From the NCBI RefSeq assembly GCF_034531395.1, contig NZ_JARVCO010000010.1, positions 62,001-126,000 of the forward strand: a stretch of DNA of 64,000 nucleotides, given 5' to 3'. This stretch comes from Pontiella agarivorans (GTDB taxonomy: Bacteria > Verrucomicrobiota > Kiritimatiellia > Kiritimatiellales > Pontiellaceae). A program made the position numbers and the translations under genes. The first letter of the stretch is position 1. Every line of letters starts with the position of its first letter. Below the pieces are notes generated by a model that saw only the letters and a program-made list of their open reading frames with translations, was not told the DNA's origin and made no database searches. This document shows, piece after piece, positions 2,773 through 59,622 of this stretch.

Positions 2773-5700
2773 CTAGTAATAATTCTGCCGGCCATAATCG
2801 CGGCCGCGATTATAGATCTTTTTGTTGAGCTGGTTTTTATAGTTCCGCAGCTGCTGGTCGGCGCTGCCCCGATACGGTTTCTGTTTGCTGATATATTTCG
2901 ATGTGTACGGCTGCTGCGGGGTGTAGCCTGCATTGTAGTTGCCGCTGTTCCACCAGGGGCGGGGCTTCGGGGGAGGCTGGTACATGGCGGCCTGGCGGGC
3001 GGCCTCGGCGGCCTGGGCGCGTTGGGCGGCCAGCCGGGCTTCGTATTTCGCCCGGATGCGCCGCTGTTTTTCCTCTTCGGCGAGGCGCGATTGGAATTCG
3101 TAGAGGGTATCGCCGCGGCTGAAGGCGGCGATGGCGCGGGCGTGCTGGGCGTGTCCAACGGGGTATTTGCTCATGAACGACGCCAAAGCGGACCGTTCAC
3201 CAGCACTGAATTCATCCGATCCGCGCCGATCCAGACTGCCGGACAGAGCCGTAAAATAGGCTTTTATTTGCTGCTGAATGCTTTTATCCAGCATTTGGAA
3301 ATGCGCCCGGTATACCGTAGAGGGCAAGTGGGGCCGCCGCACATAAAGCGCCTCAAAATAATACGGCGTTTCTTCGGGACGGCGGGTCAGGACCGGATTC
3401 AGACTCCGGCTGATGAGCCGGGCGGCGTCAGCGGGCTTCAGCTGCGCGGCCGCCAGCGGCGGACTGATCCGCTGTGCGGCGGCTTTAAACAGCTCAATTC
3501 GCGCATCCTGATCTGCAGCCCGGTTCAGCTGATCCGGCAGCTGGCGGCTCAGTTCGTCGAGAATGGAGTTCACATTATCGCGGGCCAGCGTGCGCCACGC
3601 GAGGGTGCGCGGATCGCCGGCACCGTCGGTATAGCTCATCTTTTTAGGATCGAGCGAGCCGCCGTGAAAACGGAGTCCCGTGCCGGAAACCAACAGTTCA
3701 CTGCCGGAGGTATGATTTCCATAAATGCGGCCCCGGCCGGAAAGAGAAATCGGGCCGGTGGCATATTTGCCCTGAATGAAATCGATACGGCCGCCGTTGG
3801 CCACCTGTAGAGATCCCGGAACTTGTTCGGTGAAAAATACCTGTGCGTTGTCGGCGACGATGGCGTTGCGGCCGAAGCTGTTCCGATGATCCCAGCTCGC
3901 GAACTCGACGTTGCGCAGGAAGAGACGGCTGCCCGGCGCTGCGCGGAGGGCTTTGCGGTTGCCCAAGCTGTCAGCAATTTTAAACCGTCCGTCCCGGACT
4001 GCCGTTTCAACGCTGAGGGTCAGGTTCTCCAGCCAGAGATCTCCGGCGGACGTGGTGATGACCGGATTGATTTTACTCGCGTTCGGAACGGTGAGGGTCG
4101 ACGGGTTTTCCGCATCGGCCGAACCGCGGATTATAATCCCTTCCGGCACTTGTACGGCTTTTTCCAACAGGATTGTTCCCGGAGCCAGATCGATACGACC
4201 ACCCGGCTGAACGGCGGCCAGGGCATCATGAAATTCCGTCGCATTGCTGACCGTATAGTCGGCCGGGCCTTCCAGATTCAGTGCGGTAACGTTCAGCCCC
4301 GCGCTAACGGACAGCTTCGGCTGCGCCGCGCCGCTGAGGCTGGAATTGCGGAAGGCAATTTTTCCAAGGTCTGGATCCAGTTCAACGGAAGCAAAGATTC
4401 GGCAGTCGTCAATTGCAAGCGCGGTCGCGGGCTGGAGTTTGAAAAGGTCGGCGTGATCGGTCGCAAAAACAGAACGGCTGACCCTTCCGCCCGTCGAGCC
4501 ATCATCCACAAACCGGAAACGGCTCTGCGCGGAAACCAGTTGGTCGGCTTCAAACGATCCGTACAGATCGAACGAGGAATCGCGGCTCTGCACATCGACG
4601 AGATACAGCCCGGCGGCGGAACCGCCGGCTCCCACAACGTCGGACGCTTCGATCCAGACCGAACCTTTTCCACGGAAGGTTCGGCCCTCTACGAGGCCGC
4701 GAGAAATAGCTGCAACGCCGCCCTCTTCAAGAGTCCAGACCTTCGCGGTCGGGTGAGAGGAAGAAACGCTGACTCCGTCGAGCTCCCAGAGCCGGCTGTG
4801 GAAAGGCGTGGTGCCAGAGAGATAAGTCATGCGGTTGCGCGGCGGTTTGGAGATACGCAGCACCGGGAGCGGTGTCGTATCCTCCGGAAGCTCAACCGAT
4901 CCGAGGGCCATCAGCTGCTGGCCCGGAGCGAGGGCCGACCAGACCGCATTCCAGTTTTTGAGGTTCCAGGGCGTATAAAAAGGATCTGAAATGCGGAGCG
5001 GAATCGCTGGATCGTTTCCGGCGGCCGCCAGGCCGGCGGCTTTGGCCCGGAAATAAAGCGGAAGATCACGGTGCCCGGAGAGCCCACCGAGTGCCGCCAG
5101 ATGTTGCGGATCGCCCGGCTGCTGACCGGCAAGAAAATGATAAAGAAACTGCGCGGTTGCTTCGTCTTCGGTGTTGCGCATCGCCGCAAGGTAAGACTCG
5201 GCCTCGGTTTTCCCCTGTATGAAATTCAGGTGCTGCTGCAGGGCGGGCGTTGCACCGGCTGCCAGAGTTTCAAATGAAAGATCGTCAAAGCGAAAGACCT
5301 CGGGTTTGAGCTTCAGCCCCAGGGCAATCCAGAGGCGCAGGGTATCGTCGCCCTCTCCGGCGTTGAGCTGTTTAACCACAGGCTGCAATCCGGTAAGCGG
5401 ACCGGTGAACGCTTTATAATCCATAAGCTGCAGCGTCAGCGCCATGGCATGCAGCAGGCGGCTCTGATCCGAATAAACTGTGCCGTTGAAGGCCGGGGTG
5501 GCATCGAGCGTGAGTCCGTTCAGATTCAACGCCAGCGCAGCAACCTGCCGGTGCAGCAGCGCCTGGATATCGGTTTCCGAGCGCAGCAGGCGGTGATCGC
5601 ACAACGACAGCAACAAAGGCCAGTTTCCAACACGGGCCGAAAGGGCGAGCCCATCATCGTCCACGGAAAAACCGGAGGGACAGAGCCGCCACAGCTGCTC

Positions 5701-7392
5701 CAGCACACCGGCTGCAAAATCATCCTGTTCCGCCTCAAGAAAATGGCGGTACAACGCGGACAGGCCGGTCAGATGCGTGGGATCGCGCCTCAGAGCCTCC
5801 TGCAGATCCAACACCGCCGCCGCTTTTTCCTCGGTGCTTCCATTTTTCATACCGGCCAGTGATTCGTCGATCACAGCATCGTTTTCCGCGATCAGCGGTT
5901 CGATCCACGTGCGCTGTTTTTCAGGCTGTTCAGCCTCGGCTTCAAAACCGGACCAGGCGATTTCCTGCCAATCCTGCAAGGCTTCCGCCGCTGCACGACG
6001 TTTTTTCCAAAGGTTGGAAGTCATACGGTTCTGCAGAATCAGCGGATCAAAATCCTCCAGCGCCGGGGCATCGGAAGACGCAATGTTTTCCAAAGGGGCA
6101 TCGGCAAAGGCCTGTTCCGCATCGAAATAAACCATCGCCAATCGGCGCGGGAGCGACAAAGCGTCATTTCCGGTCAGGGCCGGTTCCAAACGCCGGTCGA
6201 TCTCCCTGAAAATTTCCGCCGCCGCGAGCTGTTTTTCAAAGGCGCGGATTTCCTGATAGAGCGGATATTCCTCCGGCTCGGCATCGAGATATTCCAGCCA
6301 GACTTTCAGCACCAGGGCATGATTTCGCGCCTGTGCCTGCAGGGGAAACAGCTGCGTATTTTTGAGCGTCATGAGCTCATCGATGGATTCAATCAGTTCC
6401 GGTTCCGTTACGGCCGCATCCGCTTTTTCAAGCAGTGGCTGCGCCGCGGCTTCCAGTTCCGCCCATTTGTTCGGGGCTTCCAGCAGAAAGGCTTTAATTT
6501 CCGGATCCGGCATCACGTCGGGCGGTTCGGGCAGATAGTTTTCGAGGGCTTTGCGCCGCTTTTGCTCGTTGTAGGATTCCTGCACGGGGGCCCATTCCAG
6601 CAGAGCGACCGCTCGCGCGGCATGCTCGGCATAACTCAGATCCTTCAAGGCCTGTTTCGTGTCCGGCGCATCATTCAGCGGCGTGAAAAACTGCCCGGAG
6701 CGGGATGGATCGGGGCGGTAATGCGCGAGCCATAAAAACCGAATCAGCGCATCGGCCGCGCTGGAAACCGCTTCCGGATCCTTGCTTTTCTGCGCCTGCC
6801 GAAACGCGCTTAACCGATCCGTCAGCAGCGCCCGGTATTCTGCATCGATGCGGGCGGCCGTCAGTGGAATTTCAATCGATCCGCTGCGCTCGTACACGGC
6901 AGCCATCGGCCCTGCGGCAACCGCACCGCCGAACGCCGTCCACTGGAGCTCGGCAAGAATCGGTACAAAGGGATCCTCCGGTGCGGCAGTCCGAAGATAT
7001 TCGCGAACGTTGGCCCAGGCGGCGGAATAATCACCGGCCTCCAGCAGGGCCTGGATTTTAAGGGCTTCTATGCGCCGCACTTCGGCAGCATCGGGCCCCA
7101 ACGCCAGCGCGTATTCCAGCGTTTGGAGGGCGGCGGCGGGGGCCCCGAAATCGAGATAGGCGCCGGCCATCGCCGTCAGCGGCGGAATCTCACCGGGGGC
7201 CGAACGCTGCCAGGCGCGGGCGTTGAGATAGGCCTGGTCCGGCTGTTCGTTTGAAAGCGCCTGCTCCACGGCGGCGGCATATTCCGCCGGCGTTCGTTTC
7301 AACAGCGGTGTTTTTTCGAATGCATTTTGGGCGGTAGCGAGGAACGTTGTCGATAACAGTATTATGACCGGCGCGACCGGATTGTATTTCAT
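2773..7392 (-). CDS. giant exported protein with helical repeats, beta-helix-like region and Tyr/Gln-rich tail
   Basis: An exported protein of 1539 residues that I do not recognise. A signal peptide (MKYNPVAPVIILLSTTFLATAQ) starts at the ATG at 7392, which follows AAAGGA; an upstream in-frame start would spoil it. The first 800 or so residues are Ala/Leu/Glu-rich helices with TPR-like pairs (for example AALQTLEYALALGPDAAEVR). Residues around 920-1250 change to short beta strands with recurring G, N and D, including GGRIDLAPGTILLEKAVQVPEG, which resembles right-handed beta-helix (pectate-lyase/DUF1565) proteins. The last 120 residues are an Arg/Ala helix (QRAQAAEAARQAAMY) followed by a basic Pro/Tyr/Asn/Gln-rich tail ending GRQNYY. 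The role may be surface or envelope scaffolding, which is inference. Confidence 0.85.
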   Translation of the reverse strand: MKYNPVAPVIILLSTTFLATAQNAFEKTPLLKRTPAEYAAAVEQALSNEQPDQAYLNARAWQRSAPGEIPPLTAMAGAYLDFGAPAAALQTLEYALALGPDAAEVRRIEALKIQALLEAGDYSAAWANVREYLRTAAPEDPFVPILAELQWTAFGGAVAAGPMAAVYERSGSIEIPLTAARIDAEYRALLTDRLSAFRQAQKSKDPEAVSSAADALIRFLWLAHYRPDPSRSGQFFTPLNDAPDTKQALKDLSYAEHAARAVALLEWAPVQESYNEQKRRKALENYLPEPPDVMPDPEIKAFLLEAPNKWAELEAAAQPLLEKADAAVTEPELIESIDELMTLKNTQLFPLQAQARNHALVLKVWLEYLDAEPEEYPLYQEIRAFEKQLAAAEIFREIDRRLEPALTGNDALSLPRRLAMVYFDAEQAFADAPLENIASSDAPALEDFDPLILQNRMTSNLWKKRRAAAEALQDWQEIAWSGFEAEAEQPEKQRTWIEPLIAENDAVIDESLAGMKNGSTEEKAAAVLDLQEALRRDPTHLTGLSALYRHFLEAEQDDFAAGVLEQLWRLCPSGFSVDDDGLALSARVGNWPLLLSLCDHRLLRSETDIQALLHRQVAALALNLNGLTLDATPAFNGTVYSDQSRLLHAMALTLQLMDYKAFTGPLTGLQPVVKQLNAGEGDDTLRLWIALGLKLKPEVFRFDDLSFETLAAGATPALQQHLNFIQGKTEAESYLAAMRNTEDEATAQFLYHFLAGQQPGDPQHLAALGGLSGHRDLPLYFRAKAAGLAAAGNDPAIPLRISDPFYTPWNLKNWNAVWSALAPGQQLMALGSVELPEDTTPLPVLRISKPPRNRMTYLSGTTPFHSRLWELDGVSVSSSHPTAKVWTLEEGGVAAISRGLVEGRTFRGKGSVWIEASDVVGAGGSAAGLYLVDVQSRDSSFDLYGSFEADQLVSAQSRFRFVDDGSTGGRVSRSVFATDHADLFKLQPATALAIDDCRIFASVELDPDLGKIAFRNSSLSGAAQPKLSVSAGLNVTALNLEGPADYTVSNATEFHDALAAVQPGGRIDLAPGTILLEKAVQVPEGIIIRGSADAENPSTLTVPNASKINPVITTSAGDLWLENLTLSVETAVRDGRFKIADSLGNRKALRAAPGSRLFLRNVEFASWDHRNSFGRNAIVADNAQVFFTEQVPGSLQVANGGRIDFIQGKYATGPISLSGRGRIYGNHTSGSELLVSGTGLRFHGGSLDPKKMSYTDGAGDPRTLAWRTLARDNVNSILDELSRQLPDQLNRAADQDARIELFKAAAQRISPPLAAAQLKPADAARLISRSLNPVLTRRPEETPYYFEALYVRRPHLPSTVYRAHFQMLDKSIQQQIKAYFTALSGSLDRRGSDEFSAGERSALASFMSKYPVGHAQHARAIAAFSRGDTLYEFQSRLAEEEKQRRIRAKYEARLAAQRAQAAEAARQAAMYQPPPKPRPWWNSGNYNAGYTPQQPYTSKYISKQKPYRGSADQQLRNYKNQLNKKIYNRGRDYGRQNYY
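6005..6019. repeat. 15-bp palindrome, copy 4
   Basis: TTCCAAAGGTTGGAA in the giant exported protein gene, read SNLWK. Confidence 0.9.
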
Positions 7393-7494
7393 TTCGGTGT
7401 ATTCCTTTGGTTTAAGACAGCGTGCGGCTTTTGAATATCGCGATATATTATTCCGTATTTCAATGCGCATTTAAAGCGCATCGCACATTCAAAT

Positions 7495-7956
7495 TCAGCC
7501 GTTGCGACTGTTCAGAAGCGCTTTCCATATTTTGCCTGACGCCCGGCCTTCGAGGATGTTGACCTCCTCCTGTCCGGCTCCGCCGCGCCACTGCATCAGG
7601 CCCTCGGAAAAATAGGTCGGTTCGACCGTGTTTTGCGGTTTCACAAACGAAAAACGATACCGCTTACGGTCCGTTTCAAGCCCTCCTCCGGCTCCGAACG
7701 AATACCAGGGAATGTGAAAACGGCGAATGGCGTCCAGCGGAATGGAAAAATATTCAATGGGAAACTGATCTTCACCACGCTCGGCCACCGCACAGCCCGC
7801 TTCGGCCAGCAGATTCCCGAACCGTTTGGTGCTGAATGTCCCCTGTTCGAGCATCAGAAAGGTGAGCTTCCCGTTTTCAAGGTGAAGAAGACCGGGCAGG
7901 CTGTCGACCGGGCCGTCGAGCAGCCACGCTTTACTGGTGAAGGAGGTAGCATTCAT
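7495..7956 (-). CDS. uncharacterised PH/GRAM-like protein
   Basis: A 153-residue soluble protein without signal peptide or membrane segment. The pattern of a strand with PGLLHLENGKLTFL, then FSIPLDAIRRFHIPW, a Gly-rich turn (SFGAGGGLE) and YRFSFVKP resembles bacterial PH/GRAM-like domains, which bind lipids or proteins. AAGGA lies upstream of the ATG. It begins 24 bases after the stop of the EIIA-cyclase fusion gene and runs the same way, so the two are probably cotranscribed and may act together. The function is unknown. Confidence 0.75.
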   Translation of the reverse strand: MNATSFTSKAWLLDGPVDSLPGLLHLENGKLTFLMLEQGTFSTKRFGNLLAEAGCAVAERGEDQFPIEYFSIPLDAIRRFHIPWYSFGAGGGLETDRKRYRFSFVKPQNTVEPTYFSEGLMQWRGGAGQEEVNILEGRASGKIWKALLNSRNG

Positions 7957-7980: not shown

Positions 7981-9324
7981 TCAGCTTCCACGTTTCAGCG
8001 AAAGCATGGAGCTGCCGTTTTTATAGAGCGTGAGGGTGCCGGTGGATTCCGAAAGCACCAGCGAAAGAGCATTCGTGCAGGCGGTGATCGCCTGCCCGGC
8101 GGTATGCCGCGCCCCGAGGCCGCCCTGCAGTTGTTCCCCCATCACTTCGGCCCGGATAAAACTGCCGGCCGACATAATGACGCCGTCGCCGCGAATGACA
8201 AAAGCCCCGTCGATATGTGCAAATTCCTTAATGGTTTCAGCAAGGCTCGGATCGAGAATATTTTTTTCGTGATCACTGTAGCCCTTGAAGGGATTGATGA
8301 CCATCTGATGGCATTGATGCTGCACCTGTTCATAATCACCGACCACAAACAGGGTTCCGATCGGTTTCCCTTCCCGGCCCTCATGCGCGAGCTCCGAAGC
8401 CAGCGTGAAAATACGCAGCAGCACCTGAAAATCGATGATGCCGGAGACCAGTTCTTCGCGCAATGTGAGCGGGACACGAAGATCTTCACCGGCATTCAGC
8501 AGACGAATGGTATCCAGCCGGGCAGCTCCGGAACTTCCGTATAAACAGACAATGGTATCATCGAGCGTTAACCGGTTTCTTGAAATAAGCAGCAGCAGGG
8601 CAAAATCCAGAGCGTGACGAGGAAGGATACCGTGAAGCGGTATTTCAAACAAATGATCAAACGGAAGGTCGGGACTATTGATCTGATGCCTCGGATTGGT
8701 GACCAGCAAGGTCTGACAAGGAGCCGGATGGTTTGCAGCAAAATCCAGCCCGGACGGCTGATCAGCAATCACCAGCAGGCAGCCGGCCCCGGTTTTTTCC
8801 GCCATGCTGCAGGCGGATTCATAGACCGCTTCCGATGCAGCCTGCCCATCAGAATCCACCCCGTCCTCATCCGATGACGCACATTGAAGCAGCGCCCGGT
8901 ATAATTCCTCCCCGTTTTCGGCCGACAGTAGCGACGGCGGAATGGTCCGGTGCTGTAAAGTCCGGGCCAGCATGGCGAGGACCGATAGAAAATCGTGCCG
9001 GTCGGCTTCATCGCCGATCAGCAGAACCACCAGCTGAACCGAGCATTCGCTGGACGCCCCCCAAGCCAGGCCCTGTCGGCAGAGACCCACCGTAATCTGA
9101 GGATGTCCAAAGTCCGGAAGACGCGCATGCGGCACCGCCAGCCAGCTGCTGATATTTGTGCCGACGTCATGTTCCCGAACGAGCACCGCCTCCAATACGG
9201 TTGAGGCATTAAGGTTCGGCCGCGTTTCACAGAGCAGGTCGACCAGCTCCCCGATGGCCGCTTCCGCCGTTTCACTTTTAAGCAGGCAAAACCGTATGGC
9301 ATTCAGATAATGGGCTAGTGGCAT
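7981..9324 (-). CDS. PTS EIIA domain - PK_C-like domain - diadenylate cyclase (DAC/DisA_N) fusion protein
   Basis: A 447-residue three-part protein. Residues 1-145 match the fructose/mannitol-type PTS EIIA domain: the phosphorylatable His is His66 in AVPHARL, followed by ITVGLCRQGLAWG. Residues about 165-300 (ACSMAEKTGAGCLLVIAD onward) resemble the pyruvate-kinase C-terminal-like domain found ahead of DAC in CdaZ-type cyclases. Residues about 320-447 are a DAC domain with the DGA motif (Asp372) and GARHTAG, in which the usual RHR is RHT, then SLVLSESTGTLTLY. DAC domains make c-di-AMP from two ATP. Phosphorylation of His66 could couple synthesis to sugar or nitrogen PTS state (inference). Whether the altered RHR still catalyses is uncertain. 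A perfect 18-bp palindrome lies just upstream. Confidence 0.85.
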   Translation of the reverse strand: MPLAHYLNAIRFCLLKSETAEAAIGELVDLLCETRPNLNASTVLEAVLVREHDVGTNISSWLAVPHARLPDFGHPQITVGLCRQGLAWGASSECSVQLVVLLIGDEADRHDFLSVLAMLARTLQHRTIPPSLLSAENGEELYRALLQCASSDEDGVDSDGQAASEAVYESACSMAEKTGAGCLLVIADQPSGLDFAANHPAPCQTLLVTNPRHQINSPDLPFDHLFEIPLHGILPRHALDFALLLLISRNRLTLDDTIVCLYGSSGAARLDTIRLLNAGEDLRVPLTLREELVSGIIDFQVLLRIFTLASELAHEGREGKPIGTLFVVGDYEQVQHQCHQMVINPFKGYSDHEKNILDPSLAETIKEFAHIDGAFVIRGDGVIMSAGSFIRAEVMGEQLQGGLGARHTAGQAITACTNALSLVLSESTGTLTLYKNGSSMLSLKRGS

Positions 9325-9394: not shown

Positions 9395-10585
9395 TTATAT
9401 TTTCCGGCTTTTCTTCTGAAAGACCAATCCCAGAAAAACCACAGCCATTCCGGGCAGCAGCCAAACACTCTGTCGCTCAATGAACCCCATCCAGAAAAAC
9501 GGCATGGCCAGTATGATGGGAACCCACAGGGTATAGAGACTTGTGACACCGTTTTTATTCCGGGCTATTACACGGTAGAGCATATATGCGGGAAAAATCA
9601 GACCATACGCGCTCATAAAGAGGCGATATCCGATTTCGCCGGCCGTCAGGCCCTGATACATCGGCAGTCCCTGCACAACAACCCCGATCATTCCGGCCGG
9701 GATTAAAAGAACAGCCAGTCCTTTTTTTCGGGTTCCAATGCCTGGAAGATTCCGGATGCGGTCGAAATGTACAGTAACAGTGAAAACCCACTGGCAGAGA
9801 ATATGAAGCAGTATTCCGATTGCGAGCAGCGGACTTAACGGAGATGTAATCCGCTCTCCATCTATTACCGTGTTGAAAATCCCGGCGTAACGGGTCGTCA
9901 GAAAAATCATAAACGGGAAAAAGAGCACAAATCCGATGCTGAACCCGAGCCGGCCTTTGGATGTGGTCTCCAGCTTCTGCCGGGCATGGTGAAACGTGAC
10001 ATCGAGATAAGGGCACAGCAGAAATCCGAAAATCATGACCGGCAGCATCCAGAAGGGTTCTGCGGATGGTTTTGCGGATTGCAGCAGGGCCGCACTGGTA
10101 CTCTGAAGACTGGATGAAAAGAAAGTTCCCAGTACTACCGTCAGACTGAGCGCAAGCAATACCAGTGCGGATTTCTGTACACTCCCGCGACGCAGTGTCC
10201 AGCCGATGAGTAATACAAAAGCACCGAAAACCCCAAGACCGCCGGCGATCCAGGTTCCGGGAATTTCAAGAGCCTGAGAAAGTAATCGGAATAACCAGAT
10301 GATCCAGTAGAAATGAAATGCCAGTGTCACGGCGGAAAACCACCAGACCGCCCCGGAATGCTTTTCAACAAAGCGAACGGAATCAGAACCCGTTTTAATC
10401 GTCCAGCCCATGGCAGCCGCGCCTATGATATTGGGCACAGCAAAAATCAGATAACCGGCCCACCCCATCTCACGCAACAGCAGAACCGGCAAAAACATGC
10501 CGATGCACCAGGTCCACGAACACGCAAGGTAAGCCCCCCAACGTGTGGAATCCCGTACCGAAGCTGAAGCCGCGGAAGTGCTCAT
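9395..10585 (-). CDS. polytopic inner-membrane protein
   Basis: A 396-residue protein made mostly of hydrophobic helices, about ten or eleven by eye, beginning with YLACSWTWCIGMFLPVLLL and YLIFAVPNIIGAAAMGW. It ends with the basic cytoplasmic tail LVFQKKSRKI. The Trp-rich first helices and PNIIGAAAMGW recall sodium/solute symporter-type transporters, but I cannot place it in a family. Its ATG overlaps the stop of the upstream hot-dog gene in an ATGA, so the two are translationally coupled. A palindrome copy (9733-9747) is read as LPGIGT. Confidence 0.8.
   Translation of the reverse strand: MSTSAASASVRDSTRWGAYLACSWTWCIGMFLPVLLLREMGWAGYLIFAVPNIIGAAAMGWTIKTGSDSVRFVEKHSGAVWWFSAVTLAFHFYWIIWLFRLLSQALEIPGTWIAGGLGVFGAFVLLIGWTLRRGSVQKSALVLLALSLTVVLGTFFSSSLQSTSAALLQSAKPSAEPFWMLPVMIFGFLLCPYLDVTFHHARQKLETTSKGRLGFSIGFVLFFPFMIFLTTRYAGIFNTVIDGERITSPLSPLLAIGILLHILCQWVFTVTVHFDRIRNLPGIGTRKKGLAVLLIPAGMIGVVVQGLPMYQGLTAGEIGYRLFMSAYGLIFPAYMLYRVIARNKNGVTSLYTLWVPIILAMPFFWMGFIERQSVWLLPGMAVVFLGLVFQKKSRKI
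9733..9747. repeat. 15-bp palindrome, copy 5
   Basis: TTCCAATGCCTGGAA in the polytopic membrane protein gene, read LPGIG. Confidence 0.9.
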
Positions 10586-11211
10586 TTACCTTTTTTTCTG
10601 CGCAGTCTTTTGGCCTTGTGATGCGCCTTGGGCGTTACATGAAAGGTTGCGGTACAGCGACCCACCCGCTTGGGTTTGGCCGGTTTTCCCCCCACCATTC
10701 TCGGCTGGCTTCCGCGCACCAGCGCCTGAACAATATCCATCCGAATGGCGATATTGAACTCTTTCCCCGTGGCCACCAGCTCATGAATATCATCGAGCGG
10801 AGTCATCTGATATTCCGCCGGACCCATGCAGGGGCGCAGAAAACGGTAATCCAGATGTTTACAAACGACGGTATAATCACCGCCGCAAACCTTGAAAATA
10901 TAGTTTCCGCCGGCAATTTCGGAATTTCCCAGCAGCGATGCACCGGCCATGGCGTTATACCAGTTTTTATTAAACCGGCGGAAAGGAAGAATCGCCCGAT
11001 GCTTTGTTCCGTCCGAGGCCATCGTCAAACCGGAATGGAAAGCATAGGGCAGCCAGATCATGGAACAAACGCGGTTCCAGAACACATTACGGGTTGAAAG
11101 TTTGGAAATATATGCATCCAGACGTTCATATAACGTCAGTTTCTGTTCATCCATTTCAGGAATGCCCGGCGCGTTCGTCGTTTCATTTTCTTTCTTATCA
11201 AGTTGTTCCAT
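10582..11211 (-). CDS. DUF4442 / hot-dog fold thioesterase-like protein
   Basis: A 209-residue protein. The middle, with MASDGTKHRAILPFRRFNKNWYNAMAGASLLGNSEIAGG, has the layout of hot-dog-fold DUF4442/PaaI-like proteins: a central helix flanked by beta strands. The N-terminus is charged and probably disordered, and the C-terminus is a strongly basic tail (KAHHKAKRLRRKKGK), possibly nucleic-acid or membrane-surface binding. It overlaps the downstream membrane-protein gene by four bases. Acyl-thioester hydrolysis is a family expectation, not shown here. The ribosome-binding site is weak. Confidence 0.72.
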   Translation of the reverse strand: MEQLDKKENETTNAPGIPEMDEQKLTLYERLDAYISKLSTRNVFWNRVCSMIWLPYAFHSGLTMASDGTKHRAILPFRRFNKNWYNAMAGASLLGNSEIAGGNYIFKVCGGDYTVVCKHLDYRFLRPCMGPAEYQMTPLDDIHELVATGKEFNIAIRMDIVQALVRGSQPRMVGGKPAKPKRVGRCTATFHVTPKAHHKAKRLRRKKGK

Positions 11212-20901: not shown

Positions 20902-22608
20902 TCAGAACAGTTGATAGAGCTGCGCCAGCGGCAGTTTTTCGGCCGGTTCGCAGGTCAGGTGCTCGCCATCGACGGTGACTTTGTAGGTTTCCGGATCGAT
21001 TTCAATGTTGGGCAGCAGGTCGTTGAGCTTCATATCTTTTTTGGTCAGTCCCCGGCAGTTTTTCACGGCGGAGGCCGATTTGTTCAGCGCATAGCCGGCC
21101 ACATTTTCGAGCGAGGCCTGCGAAACAAACACCAGTGAATTATTGGCAGGGGCCGAGCCGAAACTTCCAAACATTGGACGCGAAAAGAACGGCTGCGGCG
21201 TGGGGATCGAGGCATTCGGATCGCCCATCTGCGCCTGCGCAATCACGCCGCCTTTGATGACGATTTCGGGTTTGCTGCCGAAAAAGTCGGGGCGCCATAA
21301 AACCAGATCGGCCAGTTTTCCCGGCTCGATGGATCCGATTTCGTGGCTCATGCCGTGGGCGACCGCCGGGTTGACGGTATATTTCGCCACATAGCGGCGG
21401 GCGCGGAAATTATCGTTGTCCGCCCCTTCATCCTCCGGAAGCGGACCGCGCTGCTCCTTCATTTTATGGGCGGTCTGCCACGTGCGGGTGATGACCTCGC
21501 CGATGCGGCCCATCGCCTGGGAATCGGAGGCGATAATGGACAGTGCGCCCAGGTCGTGGAGGATATCCTCGGCGGCGATGGTTTCGCCGCGGATGCGGCT
21601 TTCTGCAAAGGCAACATCTTCGGGGATGCGTTTATCGAGATGATGGCAGACCATCAGCATATCGAGATGTTCATCGATCGTGTTCACGGTGTAGGGCCGC
21701 GTCGGGTTGGTGGAGGACGGCAGCACATTGGGCTCGCCGCACAGCTTCATGATGTCGGGCGCATGGCCGCCGCCGGCGCCTTCGGTGTGGTAGGTGTGAA
21801 TGGTGCGGCCTTTGAACGCCGCACAGGTATTTTCCACCATCCCTGATTCATTCAGCGTGTCGGTGTGAATGGCCACCTGCACATCATACTGCTCCGCCAC
21901 ATCGAGGCAGCAGTCGATGGCCGCCGGGGTCGAACCCCAGTCTTCGTGCAGTTTAAGCCCGGCGGCGCCGGCTTCGATCTGCTCCGTGAGTCCAACGGGA
22001 CTTGAGCTGTTGCCTTTGCCGAGAAAGGCAAAATTCATCGGATAAGCATCGGTGGAGCGCAGCATCATTTCGATATGGGTTTTTCCGGGCGTGCAGGTGG
22101 TGGCATTGGTTCCGGTGGCCGGACCGGTGCCGCCGCCGAGCATCGTTGTCAGTCCGGAAGCCAGCGCTTCGTTGATCTGCTGCGGACAGATAAAATGGAT
22201 ATGGGCGTCAAAACCGCCCGCCGTGAGAATCAGTTTTTCCCCGGCGATGACTTCGGTGGTCGGCCCGCAGATCATATCGGGGTCGACGCCGTCCATCATG
22301 TCGGGATTGCCGGCCTTGCCGATGGCGTGAATGCGGCCGTTTTTAACGCCGACGTCGGCTTTATAAATGCCGGTGTAATCGAGAATCAAGGCATTGGTGA
22401 TCAGCAGATCGAGCGCTTCTTCCTGGGACGCGCCGGACTGCTGGCCCATGCCGTCGCGCAGCACTTTTCCGCCGCCGAATTTACATTCATCGCCGTAGAC
22501 GGTGAGGTCCTTTTCGACTTCGATCAGCAGGTTGGTATCGCCGAGGCGGACTTTATCGCCGGTGGTCGGGCCGAACATGGCCGCATAGTTCTTGCGATTG
22601 ATGTTCAT
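20902..22608 (-). CDS. ureC: urease alpha subunit
   Basis: A 568-residue catalytic subunit hydrolysing urea to ammonia and carbamate. Nickel ligands and active-site residues are visible: His136 and His138 ([14 protein letters not shown]), carbamylated Lys219 (GLKLHEDWG), His248 ([10 protein letters not shown]), His274 ([10 protein letters not shown]), and the mobile flap with Cys321 and His322 ([13 protein letters not shown]). The length is normal. Its ATG overlaps the ureAB stop by one base (TGATG), implying coupled translation of the structural subunits. Confidence 0.98.
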
Positions 22609-57818: not shown

Positions 57819-58766
57819 CTACTTAACCTTGGTTATCTCAACCTGCACAACAGCAGGTTCGATTTTTACCATCTTGATTTCGGGAGGTAGATTGATTTCT
57901 AAAGGAAGTTCGTATGCAGCCGCTTCCGGTAAATCCTGACAACTGACATAGATAAATAGATCCTTGGTTTCAAGGCGTTCAACAGCCCGTTTATCGCCCT
58001 GAACTGTGATATTTACCGTTTTTGGAAAAATTTCAATTCTACGTTCCTCGCCGGGAGAAGAGACGATTCGTACCGGAATTTTATCAAAATCGGCTGTACT
58101 ATTATGTTCAGCCAGAAAGACTTCGATGGAAACCCAATTGGGATCGACTGCCAGACGTCCGGCTTGGGGAACGGCAATAGGAACACTTTCTTTGAATGTG
58201 GCCTGCCGATCCGCCAGATCTATTTTTTCCGTGTGTATATTCTCCATGCTGTCGAGAATCTGTCGTGCTCCTGAAACTTTTACTGATGCAGGTGTTGCTA
58301 CAATACGTTCAATTTCAATACCTTCCGGAAGATTTCCTGAAATAGCTGCTTTAACAGGAAGAAGACGTTCACCCTCCTGGTCCATTCTGACCACGATTTC
58401 AGAAGGGCTGAAACTGACCACTTTGGCCCCGGTTGGGTTGCGGAGGTGTGCGGGGGTCAGCTTAATCATCATTTCTTCACCCTGCACGGGATTCTGTACT
58501 GGAATGACCAAGTGCAGCTGATCGCTGTTCAGATAGCGGATATCCTCGCGGGAACCTCGAAAAACAATATTTACCCGTTGCATCGATTTTTCCCAGACTG
58601 CCCAGCCGGAAGGGGTTTTCACATCTACCGGAATACCTGAAACAGAAACTTCAAATCCAATGGTTTTACGAATGCTCTGCCAGCCCAGAAAAGCCAGAAT
58701 CAGGCAGAGGATAATCAGAAACCGGTCTTTCCAGAACTGATTCCAGGCATTGGAAATTCTACTCAT
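57819..58766 (-). CDS. cdaR: CdaR-like YbbR-domain protein
   Basis: A 315-residue protein with one N-terminal helix (FLIILCLILAFLGWQSIRKT) and repeated YbbR-type beta domains (VNIVFRGSREDIRYLNSDQLHLVI; VKVSGARQILDSMENIHTEKIDL; KTVNITVQGDKRAVERLETKDLFIYV). YbbR/CdaR regulates the membrane diadenylate cyclase CdaA, whose gene lies directly upstream and overlaps by eight bases. The ATG at 58766 is chosen because the longer frame has no pilot motif and overlaps cdaA deeply. A palindrome copy starts its coding region (SNAWN). Confidence 0.9.
   Translation of the reverse strand: MSRISNAWNQFWKDRFLIILCLILAFLGWQSIRKTIGFEVSVSGIPVDVKTPSGWAVWEKSMQRVNIVFRGSREDIRYLNSDQLHLVIPVQNPVQGEEMMIKLTPAHLRNPTGAKVVSFSPSEIVVRMDQEGERLLPVKAAISGNLPEGIEIERIVATPASVKVSGARQILDSMENIHTEKIDLADRQATFKESVPIAVPQAGRLAVDPNWVSIEVFLAEHNSTADFDKIPVRIVSSPGEERRIEIFPKTVNITVQGDKRAVERLETKDLFIYVSCQDLPEAAAYELPLEINLPPEIKMVKIEPAVVQVEITKVK
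58741..58755. repeat. 15-bp palindrome, copy 18
   Basis: TTCCAGGCATTGGAA at the start of cdaR, read SNAWN. Confidence 0.85.
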
Positions 58767-59622
58767 CGTTCTTCTCCTCGCTGAATGGCATAAGAACGGT
58801 ATCGGAAAGATCAGCTTCTCCAGTTTGGATTTGTTCGCGAAAGCGGGATAACCCGGTTCGCTCTCGCCGCAGCATCGACTGCAGGACCCGCCGTAAGCGC
58901 TCCTCGCCAAGACCTCGCCGAAGTCGACCGTTATAGGCCAGAGAAACAGCGCCTGTTTCTTCGGAAACCACTACTACAATCGCATCCGTTTCTTCAGTGA
59001 TACCAATGGCGGCCCGGTGTCGAGTGCCGAGGGTTTTACTCAGCTCTTCTTTCTGTGACAATGGAAACAGGCAGCCGGCTGCACAGATTCGGTCACCGGA
59101 AATAATCACTCCTCCGTCATGGAGCGGGGTATGCGGAAAGAAAATAGTGGAAAGCAGTTCAGCACTAACTGCGCTGTTCATTTTTGTGCCGGTGTCCTGA
59201 ATTGCCCGTGTTCCAATTTCGCGCTCTATCGCAATCAGTGCACCGATTTTTCGTTTAGAAAGAAGTTTCACCGTTTGCATGATGGGTTCAATCAGATTGC
59301 GCTGTGAAACCATACCGTTGTTGCGCCAAGGCTGCCGGCCCAGCCGCGCAAGAACCCGCCGGATTTCCGGCTGAAAAATCACCACAATCGCCAGTGTAAT
59401 ATAAAGCATCAGCTTGGAGAGAATCCAATTGAGAACTTCAAGATGACTTAAGTTAGTGATGGCATTCAGTGCGCCGAAAAGAATGATAAGGCCGGTCAGA
59501 ATGGCTGATCCGCGCGTTCCTTTGAAGAGTCTGAAGATGTAATAAAGCAGGGCCGCGAGAATTAATATCTCAACCCATCCAATCGCATCAGGCAGTTCAA
59601 AAGCATCGTTCAATTGCATCAC
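58759..59622 (-). CDS. cdaA: membrane diadenylate cyclase CdaA
   Basis: A 287-residue CdaA (DacA) that makes c-di-AMP from ATP. Three N-terminal helices (WVEILILAALLYYIFRL; AILTGLIILFGAL; WILSKLMLYITLAIVVIF) precede the DAC domain with IALIAIEREIG-type sequence, HTPLHDGGVII and GTRHRAAIGITEETDA. RHR is intact at 201-203. The usual DGA motif is DGG here (Asp169-Gly171). It overlaps folP (ATGA) upstream and cdaR downstream. Confidence 0.95.
   Translation of the reverse strand: MMQLNDAFELPDAIGWVEILILAALLYYIFRLFKGTRGSAILTGLIILFGALNAITNLSHLEVLNWILSKLMLYITLAIVVIFQPEIRRVLARLGRQPWRNNGMVSQRNLIEPIMQTVKLLSKRKIGALIAIEREIGTRAIQDTGTKMNSAVSAELLSTIFFPHTPLHDGGVIISGDRICAAGCLFPLSQKEELSKTLGTRHRAAIGITEETDAIVVVVSEETGAVSLAYNGRLRRGLGEERLRRVLQSMLRRERTGLSRFREQIQTGEADLSDTVLMPFSEEKNDE

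Follow-up and report, generated by a model that had tools for sequence, protein, structure and literature searches.

Organization of the Locus

The window, i.e., the whole 64-kb stretch of DNA analysed here, carries on its minus strand an open reading frame (7981–9324) for a 447-aa protein, in which an EIIA domain, a pyruvate-kinase C-terminal-like (PK_C-like) domain and a diadenylate cyclase (DAC) domain are fused in one chain. The second DAC gene of this genome, cdaA, is found in the same window. The features concerned are as follows:

7981..9324, minus strand: EIIA–DacZ_P (PK_C-like)–DAC fusion protein, 447 aa
8887..9285, minus strand: PTS_EIIA_2 domain, EIIA-Ntr-like, residues 14–146 (Pfam, 65.7 bits; PtsN matches in the PDB; VIA Z 21.3 to 1a6j)
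8479..8832, minus strand: DacZ_P domain, residues 165–282, pyruvate-kinase C-terminal fold (Pfam, 36.6 bits; hmmsearch; VIA Z 15.3 to 5ws9)
8011..8388, minus strand: DAC catalytic domain, residues 313–438 (Pfam, 70.7 bits; VIA Z 16.2 to the CdaA-AMP complex)
58759..59622, minus strand: CdaA (CdaA_N + DAC), the second DAC of the genome, adjoining a YbbR (CdaR-like) gene

The immediate neighbours of the fusion gene (7495–7956, 9395–10585 and 10582–11211) gave no match to Pfam or NCBIfam, and a promoter/terminator scan around it yielded nothing usefully above the shuffled expectation. A link to phage defence of the CBASS-like kind was considered and rejected, as neither the fusion nor its three neighbours had a PADLOC match. 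Elsewhere in the window, the minus strand codes for a 1565-aa protein with no Pfam match (2773–7470), and the plus strand contains a match to the Rfam family 5_ureB_sRNA (22167–22461; 130.7 bits), which is possibly just conserved urease-gene sequence, antisense. In CdaA, DGG replaces the DGA motif and RHR is intact; the YbbR gene follows cdaA, and a dihydropteroate-synthase-like gene precedes it.

Domain Architecture of the Fusion Protein

All three domains exceed the curated Pfam cut-offs (27 bits for PTS_EIIA_2, 27.4 for DacZ_P, and 27 for DAC, PF02457), including the EIIA and DAC profiles against which the preliminary description of this locus had suggested a search. No match to CdaA_N, the N-terminal transmembrane domain, was found in the protein by Pfam. 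In the PDB, a profile built from 18 homologues found PtsN structures, diadenylate cyclases and pyruvate kinase C-terminal domains (the last at residues 161–279, by hmmsearch). With 60 homologues as input, AlphaFold gave a model with a mean pLDDT of 86.8 and a weak linker at about residue 155. Its residues 1–151 superpose on E. coli IIA-Ntr, residues 162–282 on the pyruvate kinase C-domain of M. tuberculosis, and residues 292–443 on the CdaA-AMP complex, with the Z scores listed above. Pfam, the family alignment and the model thus agree on the order EIIA (with His66), PK_C-like, DAC that had been read from the sequence. A chance or artefactual frame was dismissed, given orthologues with 80% and 62% identity and full-length relatives in several phyla.

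The best NCBIfam match of the fusion is DacZ (NF041371), with 112 bits against an equivalog cut-off of 430, which is not reached. On the other hand, the arrangement by which the DacZ superfamily is recognised, a PK_C-like domain in front of DAC, was found in the fusion by Pfam, profile and fold alike.

Site Residues and the RHx Motif

The residues expected to matter for phosphotransfer and catalysis lie at the positions initially assigned to His66, DGA and RHT:

9127..9129, minus strand: His66 codon, putative phosphorylation site, aligned with residue 73 of E. coli PtsN
9172..9177, minus strand: Arg50–Glu51, pair in the EIIA active-site region, invariant in 60/60 aligned proteins
8203..8211, minus strand: DGA motif, residues 372–374 (D and G in 110/110, A in 108/110)
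8101..8109, minus strand: RHT, counterpart of RHR, residues 406–408 (R and H in 110/110, third residue variable)

In a phmmer alignment with E. coli PtsN, Arg50 of the fusion falls on position 57 and His66 on position 73; His73 is the residue that is phosphorylated in PtsN. Among 110 homologues (a few of them present as identical duplicates), His66 is conserved in 109, and the remaining one (L099) has a gap thereabouts; D372, G373, R406 and H407 are present throughout the set. Pairwise identity in the EIIA part averages 34%.

To the letter, RHR is absent from the fusion, which has RHT instead, and the preliminary description had taken this departure as a possible sign of weak cyclase activity or of a c-di-AMP/ATP sensor. 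The comparison of homologues speaks against such a reading. The third residue of the motif is A in 76 of the 110 proteins, T in 18, Q in six, E in five, R in three and V in two, and it is His in two haloarchaeal (Haladaptatus) proteins annotated as DacZ; decay of the motif was discarded as an explanation on these grounds. For the DacZ of Haloferax volcanii, enzyme activity has been measured (PMC6741144). Evidence pointing the other way comes from M. tuberculosis DacA, in which the RHR-to-AAA mutation abolishes activity, although all three residues were altered together (PMC3328451). Taken together, the variability across the family, the His of haloarchaeal DacZ and the activity of the Haloferax enzyme suggest that the third Arg is not a reliable mark of activity in the DacZ superfamily. 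As far as the aligned proteins indicate, the full RHR triplet is not defining for DacZ-type cyclases and is unusable for calling them inactive.

Distribution and Inheritance

Full-length relatives were found in about 63 of the 388 genomes of the same phylum that were searched, and a scan of GTDB contigs gave at least 80 loci with relatives. These loci span Verrucomicrobiota (including Kiritimatiellae), Spirochaetota, Planctomycetota and Fibrobacterota, along with single MAGs labelled Deltaproteobacteria and Wallbacteria. The survey of genomes sharing the architecture that had been proposed at the outset has therefore returned a cross-phylum family, with the near-invariant His66 described above. 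In eight family members that were spot-checked by Pfam, EIIA and DAC were above cut-off in every case and DacZ_P in five. The distance matrices of the EIIA, PK_C-like and DAC parts correlate pairwise at 0.91–0.93, which indicates that the three domains have travelled together. No operon conserved across phyla was detected in the 8-kb flanks; neighbours are shared within lineages only, e.g., a NuoA-type gene in Opitutia.

Within the genus Pontiella, four of ten genomes hold the fusion, each of them together with CdaA, and all site residues are intact in the four orthologues despite differences of up to 38%. In the tree, the Pontiellaceae proteins group with those of Spirochaetota, Fibrobacterota, other Kiritimatiellae and two Brocadiaceae-labelled MAGs, away from Opitutia. 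This placement, in which some joins are long branches and call for caution, suggests that the fusion gene may have reached Pontiellaceae by horizontal transfer.

The Fusion as Sole DAC and the c-di-AMP Machinery

No other DAC is present in 56 of the 64 Verrucomicrobiota genomes that hold the fusion, compared with 57 of 60 sampled genomes of the same phylum without it that have another DAC, nearly always one. The absence of CdaA tracks the presence of the fusion (Fisher p ~1e-23, uncorrected for the relatedness of the genomes), which points to replacement of function. As a separate observation, one genome has a DAC match in a 523-aa frame (G077:C1:265004-265363), beside a CdaA-sized one.

The PgpH phosphodiesterase domain (PF07697) was detected in 53/64 genomes with the fusion vs. 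2/16 without it (p ~3e-7, again uncorrected for relatedness), and a PgpH match was absent in ten fusion-only genomes. A c-di-AMP riboswitch (RF00379) was found, with 50–60 bits against a gathering score of 38, in six genomes whose only DAC is the fusion; under the strict filters of the scan, these six were the only ones among the 64 fusion genomes with a detectable riboswitch, and the genome of the window is not among them. Five of the six riboswitches precede potassium importer genes. Four are followed by KimA-like permeases (L129, L131, L132 and L133), which were grouped by shared sequence and of which the L132 protein matches the solved KimA with an E-value of 4e-54; the fifth (L128) precedes a gene for a Kup-type transporter (K_trans, 554 bits). 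The sixth (L130, 1501–3171) stands ahead of a Band_7/SPFH-domain gene, not a potassium transporter. As these organisms have riboswitches on potassium importers and no other detectable DAC, their c-di-AMP very probably comes from the fusion. Judging from this genomic evidence, the fusion protein is very probably an active diadenylate cyclase.

Phosphotransfer Context

The genome of the window encodes EI, a GAF-bearing EI of the PtsP kind, and two HPr-like proteins. The EI and HPr copies are located at C12:666k, C10:232k and C10:872k, and the window itself corresponds to C10:62–126k. It was correctly noted before that neither HPr nor EI is encoded within the 64-kb window; this carries no weight, because both are encoded elsewhere in the genome. 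All 73 genomes of the first set encode EI, as do all 60 sampled genomes that lack the fusion. With EI universal in the sample irrespective of the fusion, the co-occurrence of EI/HPr is uninformative and was dropped as support for a phosphorelay.

Ten EIIA_2 proteins were identified in the genome of the window, eight of which are fused to a second recognised domain: an Na+/H+ exchanger, two amino-acid permeases, HTH_17, CBS, two Zn-ribbon proteins and DAC. Of the remaining two, one has 408 aa and no second Pfam match, and the other is stand-alone. Judging from this set (L008–L017), EIIA in the Pontiella lineage looks like a general plug-in regulator. A cluster of EIIA-fusion genes is common to Pontiellaceae (Zn-ribbon-EIIA, RlmN-like radical SAM, amino-acid permease-EIIA; L048 4407–11366, L049 4444–13422, L139 2615–6413). 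In two Pontiellaceae relatives, the fusion gene lies between the radical-SAM gene, which follows the Zn-ribbon-EIIA gene, and the amino-acid-permease-EIIA gene, and in one of the two an EI gene is located between the fusion and the permease. The genome of the window has the matching cluster on C12 without a DAC gene, its DAC fusion being on another contig.

The cluster neighbours, the EI and HPr proteins of the genome, and the near-invariant His66 and Arg50–Glu51 make phosphorylation likely. The initial idea that the protein would join phosphotransfer to c-di-AMP synthesis holds up, with His66 conserved across several phyla and the three domains inherited together. It is likely, on the basis of conservation and co-inheritance, that His66 is phosphorylated via EI/HPr and controls the cyclase, and this is the best reading of the data.

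Proposed Function and Alternative Explanations

In our view, the fusion is probably a DacZ-superfamily enzyme with diadenylate cyclase activity, the output of which is set by its two N-terminal input domains. Phosphate would pass from PEP to EI (or the GAF-bearing EI-Ntr), on to HPr/NPr, and finally to His66 in EIIA. Depending on whether EIIA is phosphorylated, the pairing of DAC domains, on which catalysis depends, would then change, and with it the rate at which two ATP are converted to c-di-AMP. The PK_C-like domain is perhaps a second, metabolite-binding sensor; in pyruvate kinase, fructose-1,6-bisphosphate is a ligand of this fold, as noted by Braun et al. 2019 (PMC6741144). The c-di-AMP formed would act chiefly on potassium uptake, as suggested by the riboswitch-controlled KimA-like and Kup genes of relatives, and would be broken down by a PgpH-type phosphodiesterase. 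In the genome of the window, where CdaA is also present, the fusion would be an added, PTS-tuned source of c-di-AMP.

As for the direction of control, c-di-AMP lowers potassium uptake in Firmicutes. Unphosphorylated PtsN binds KdpD and promotes potassium uptake (PMC9239096). If the unphosphorylated state of PTS-Ntr favours uptake and c-di-AMP lowers it, a cyclase that is switched on by phosphorylation would be coherent with both, and this direction is our guess by analogy.

An active cyclase in which EIIA is a protein-binding or oligomerisation module, with no phosphorylation switch, would fit the uninformative EI/HPr co-occurrence and the fact that EIIA-Ntr proteins often act via partners such as KdpD (PMC9239096). 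However, a purely structural module would hardly keep His66 in 109/110 and Arg50–Glu51 in 60/60 proteins at so low a mean identity of the EIIA part, and we regard this explanation as unlikely. A DAC domain with little or no catalytic activity, acting as an ATP/c-di-AMP sensor that steers EIIA, is highly improbable. The motif does depart from RHR, and the genome of the window could obtain its c-di-AMP from CdaA, but the D, G, R and H of the motifs are invariant in 110 proteins, haloarchaeal DacZ has His in the third position and the Haloferax volcanii enzyme is active (PMC6741144), and 56 genomes, six of them with c-di-AMP riboswitches, have no DAC other than the fusion.

A narrower alternative concerns the genus Pontiella only, where the fusion could be a recently acquired, redundant accessory of little effect, the family at large being functional. 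Its presence in just four of ten genomes, always with CdaA, and the position of the Pontiellaceae proteins apart from the Opitutia clade, beside the two Brocadiaceae-labelled MAGs (a long-branch join), are in its favour; the intact site residues of four orthologues that differ by up to 38% argue against it, and we find it quite improbable.

Returning to the PTS-controlled cyclase, its broadest form would be a widespread, horizontally shared enzyme under a PEP-dependent phosphorelay, with a second input from the PEP/pyruvate node via the pyruvate-kinase-like domain, that has replaced CdaA as the sole c-di-AMP source in Opitutia and governs KimA/Kup import; we judge the chances of this whole scheme to be even. 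If true, one chain would unite two systems of potassium control, PTS-Ntr of Proteobacteria and c-di-AMP of Firmicutes, and would provide a molecular reason why both end at potassium transport. To our knowledge, the signals that switch diadenylate cyclases on or off are largely unknown. The fusion names its own input, a conserved phosphorylatable His that EI/HPr could feed, and so offers a concrete lead on the control of c-di-AMP and, through it, of potassium uptake. Most of the Opitutia examined have no DAC besides the fusion, so that a single gene and a single point mutation suffice to address the question.

Comparison with Known Systems

No description of an EIIA-DAC fusion was found in the literature searched, a scope outside which the Galperin 2023 review falls. 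That review reportedly deals with DAC architectures, and Pfam already has DacZ_P, so the bare EIIA–DacZ_P–DAC architecture has probably been catalogued. The role as sole cyclase in Opitutia and the potassium link appear not to have been described before; what is added here is the sole DAC in Opitutia, the free third position of RHx, and the association with PgpH and with the riboswitches of KimA/Kup genes.

Among the closest known systems are bacterial DacZ_P-DAC proteins (PF21755 + PF02457), which have the same two C-terminal domains and exist in an EIIA-less form of 296 aa (G173, L137), whereas the fusion has EIIA in front. Haloarchaeal DacZ (NF041371; DACZ_N + DAC) likewise has a C-terminal DAC, an N-terminal domain modelled as PK_C-like by Braun et al. 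2019 (PMC6741144), and a third RHx residue other than Arg (His in the two Haladaptatus proteins), but it is without EIIA, and the middle domain of the fusion matches DacZ_P, not DACZ_N. PtsN (EIIA-Ntr) shares the fold (Z 21.3) and the active His in register with His66, but it is a stand-alone domain, whereas the EIIA of the fusion shares its chain with a cyclase. CdaA (DacA), e.g., that at 58759–59622 of the window, shares the DAC fold and the DG and RH residues; it has N-terminal transmembrane helices and RHR, whereas the fusion has cytosolic input domains and RHT.
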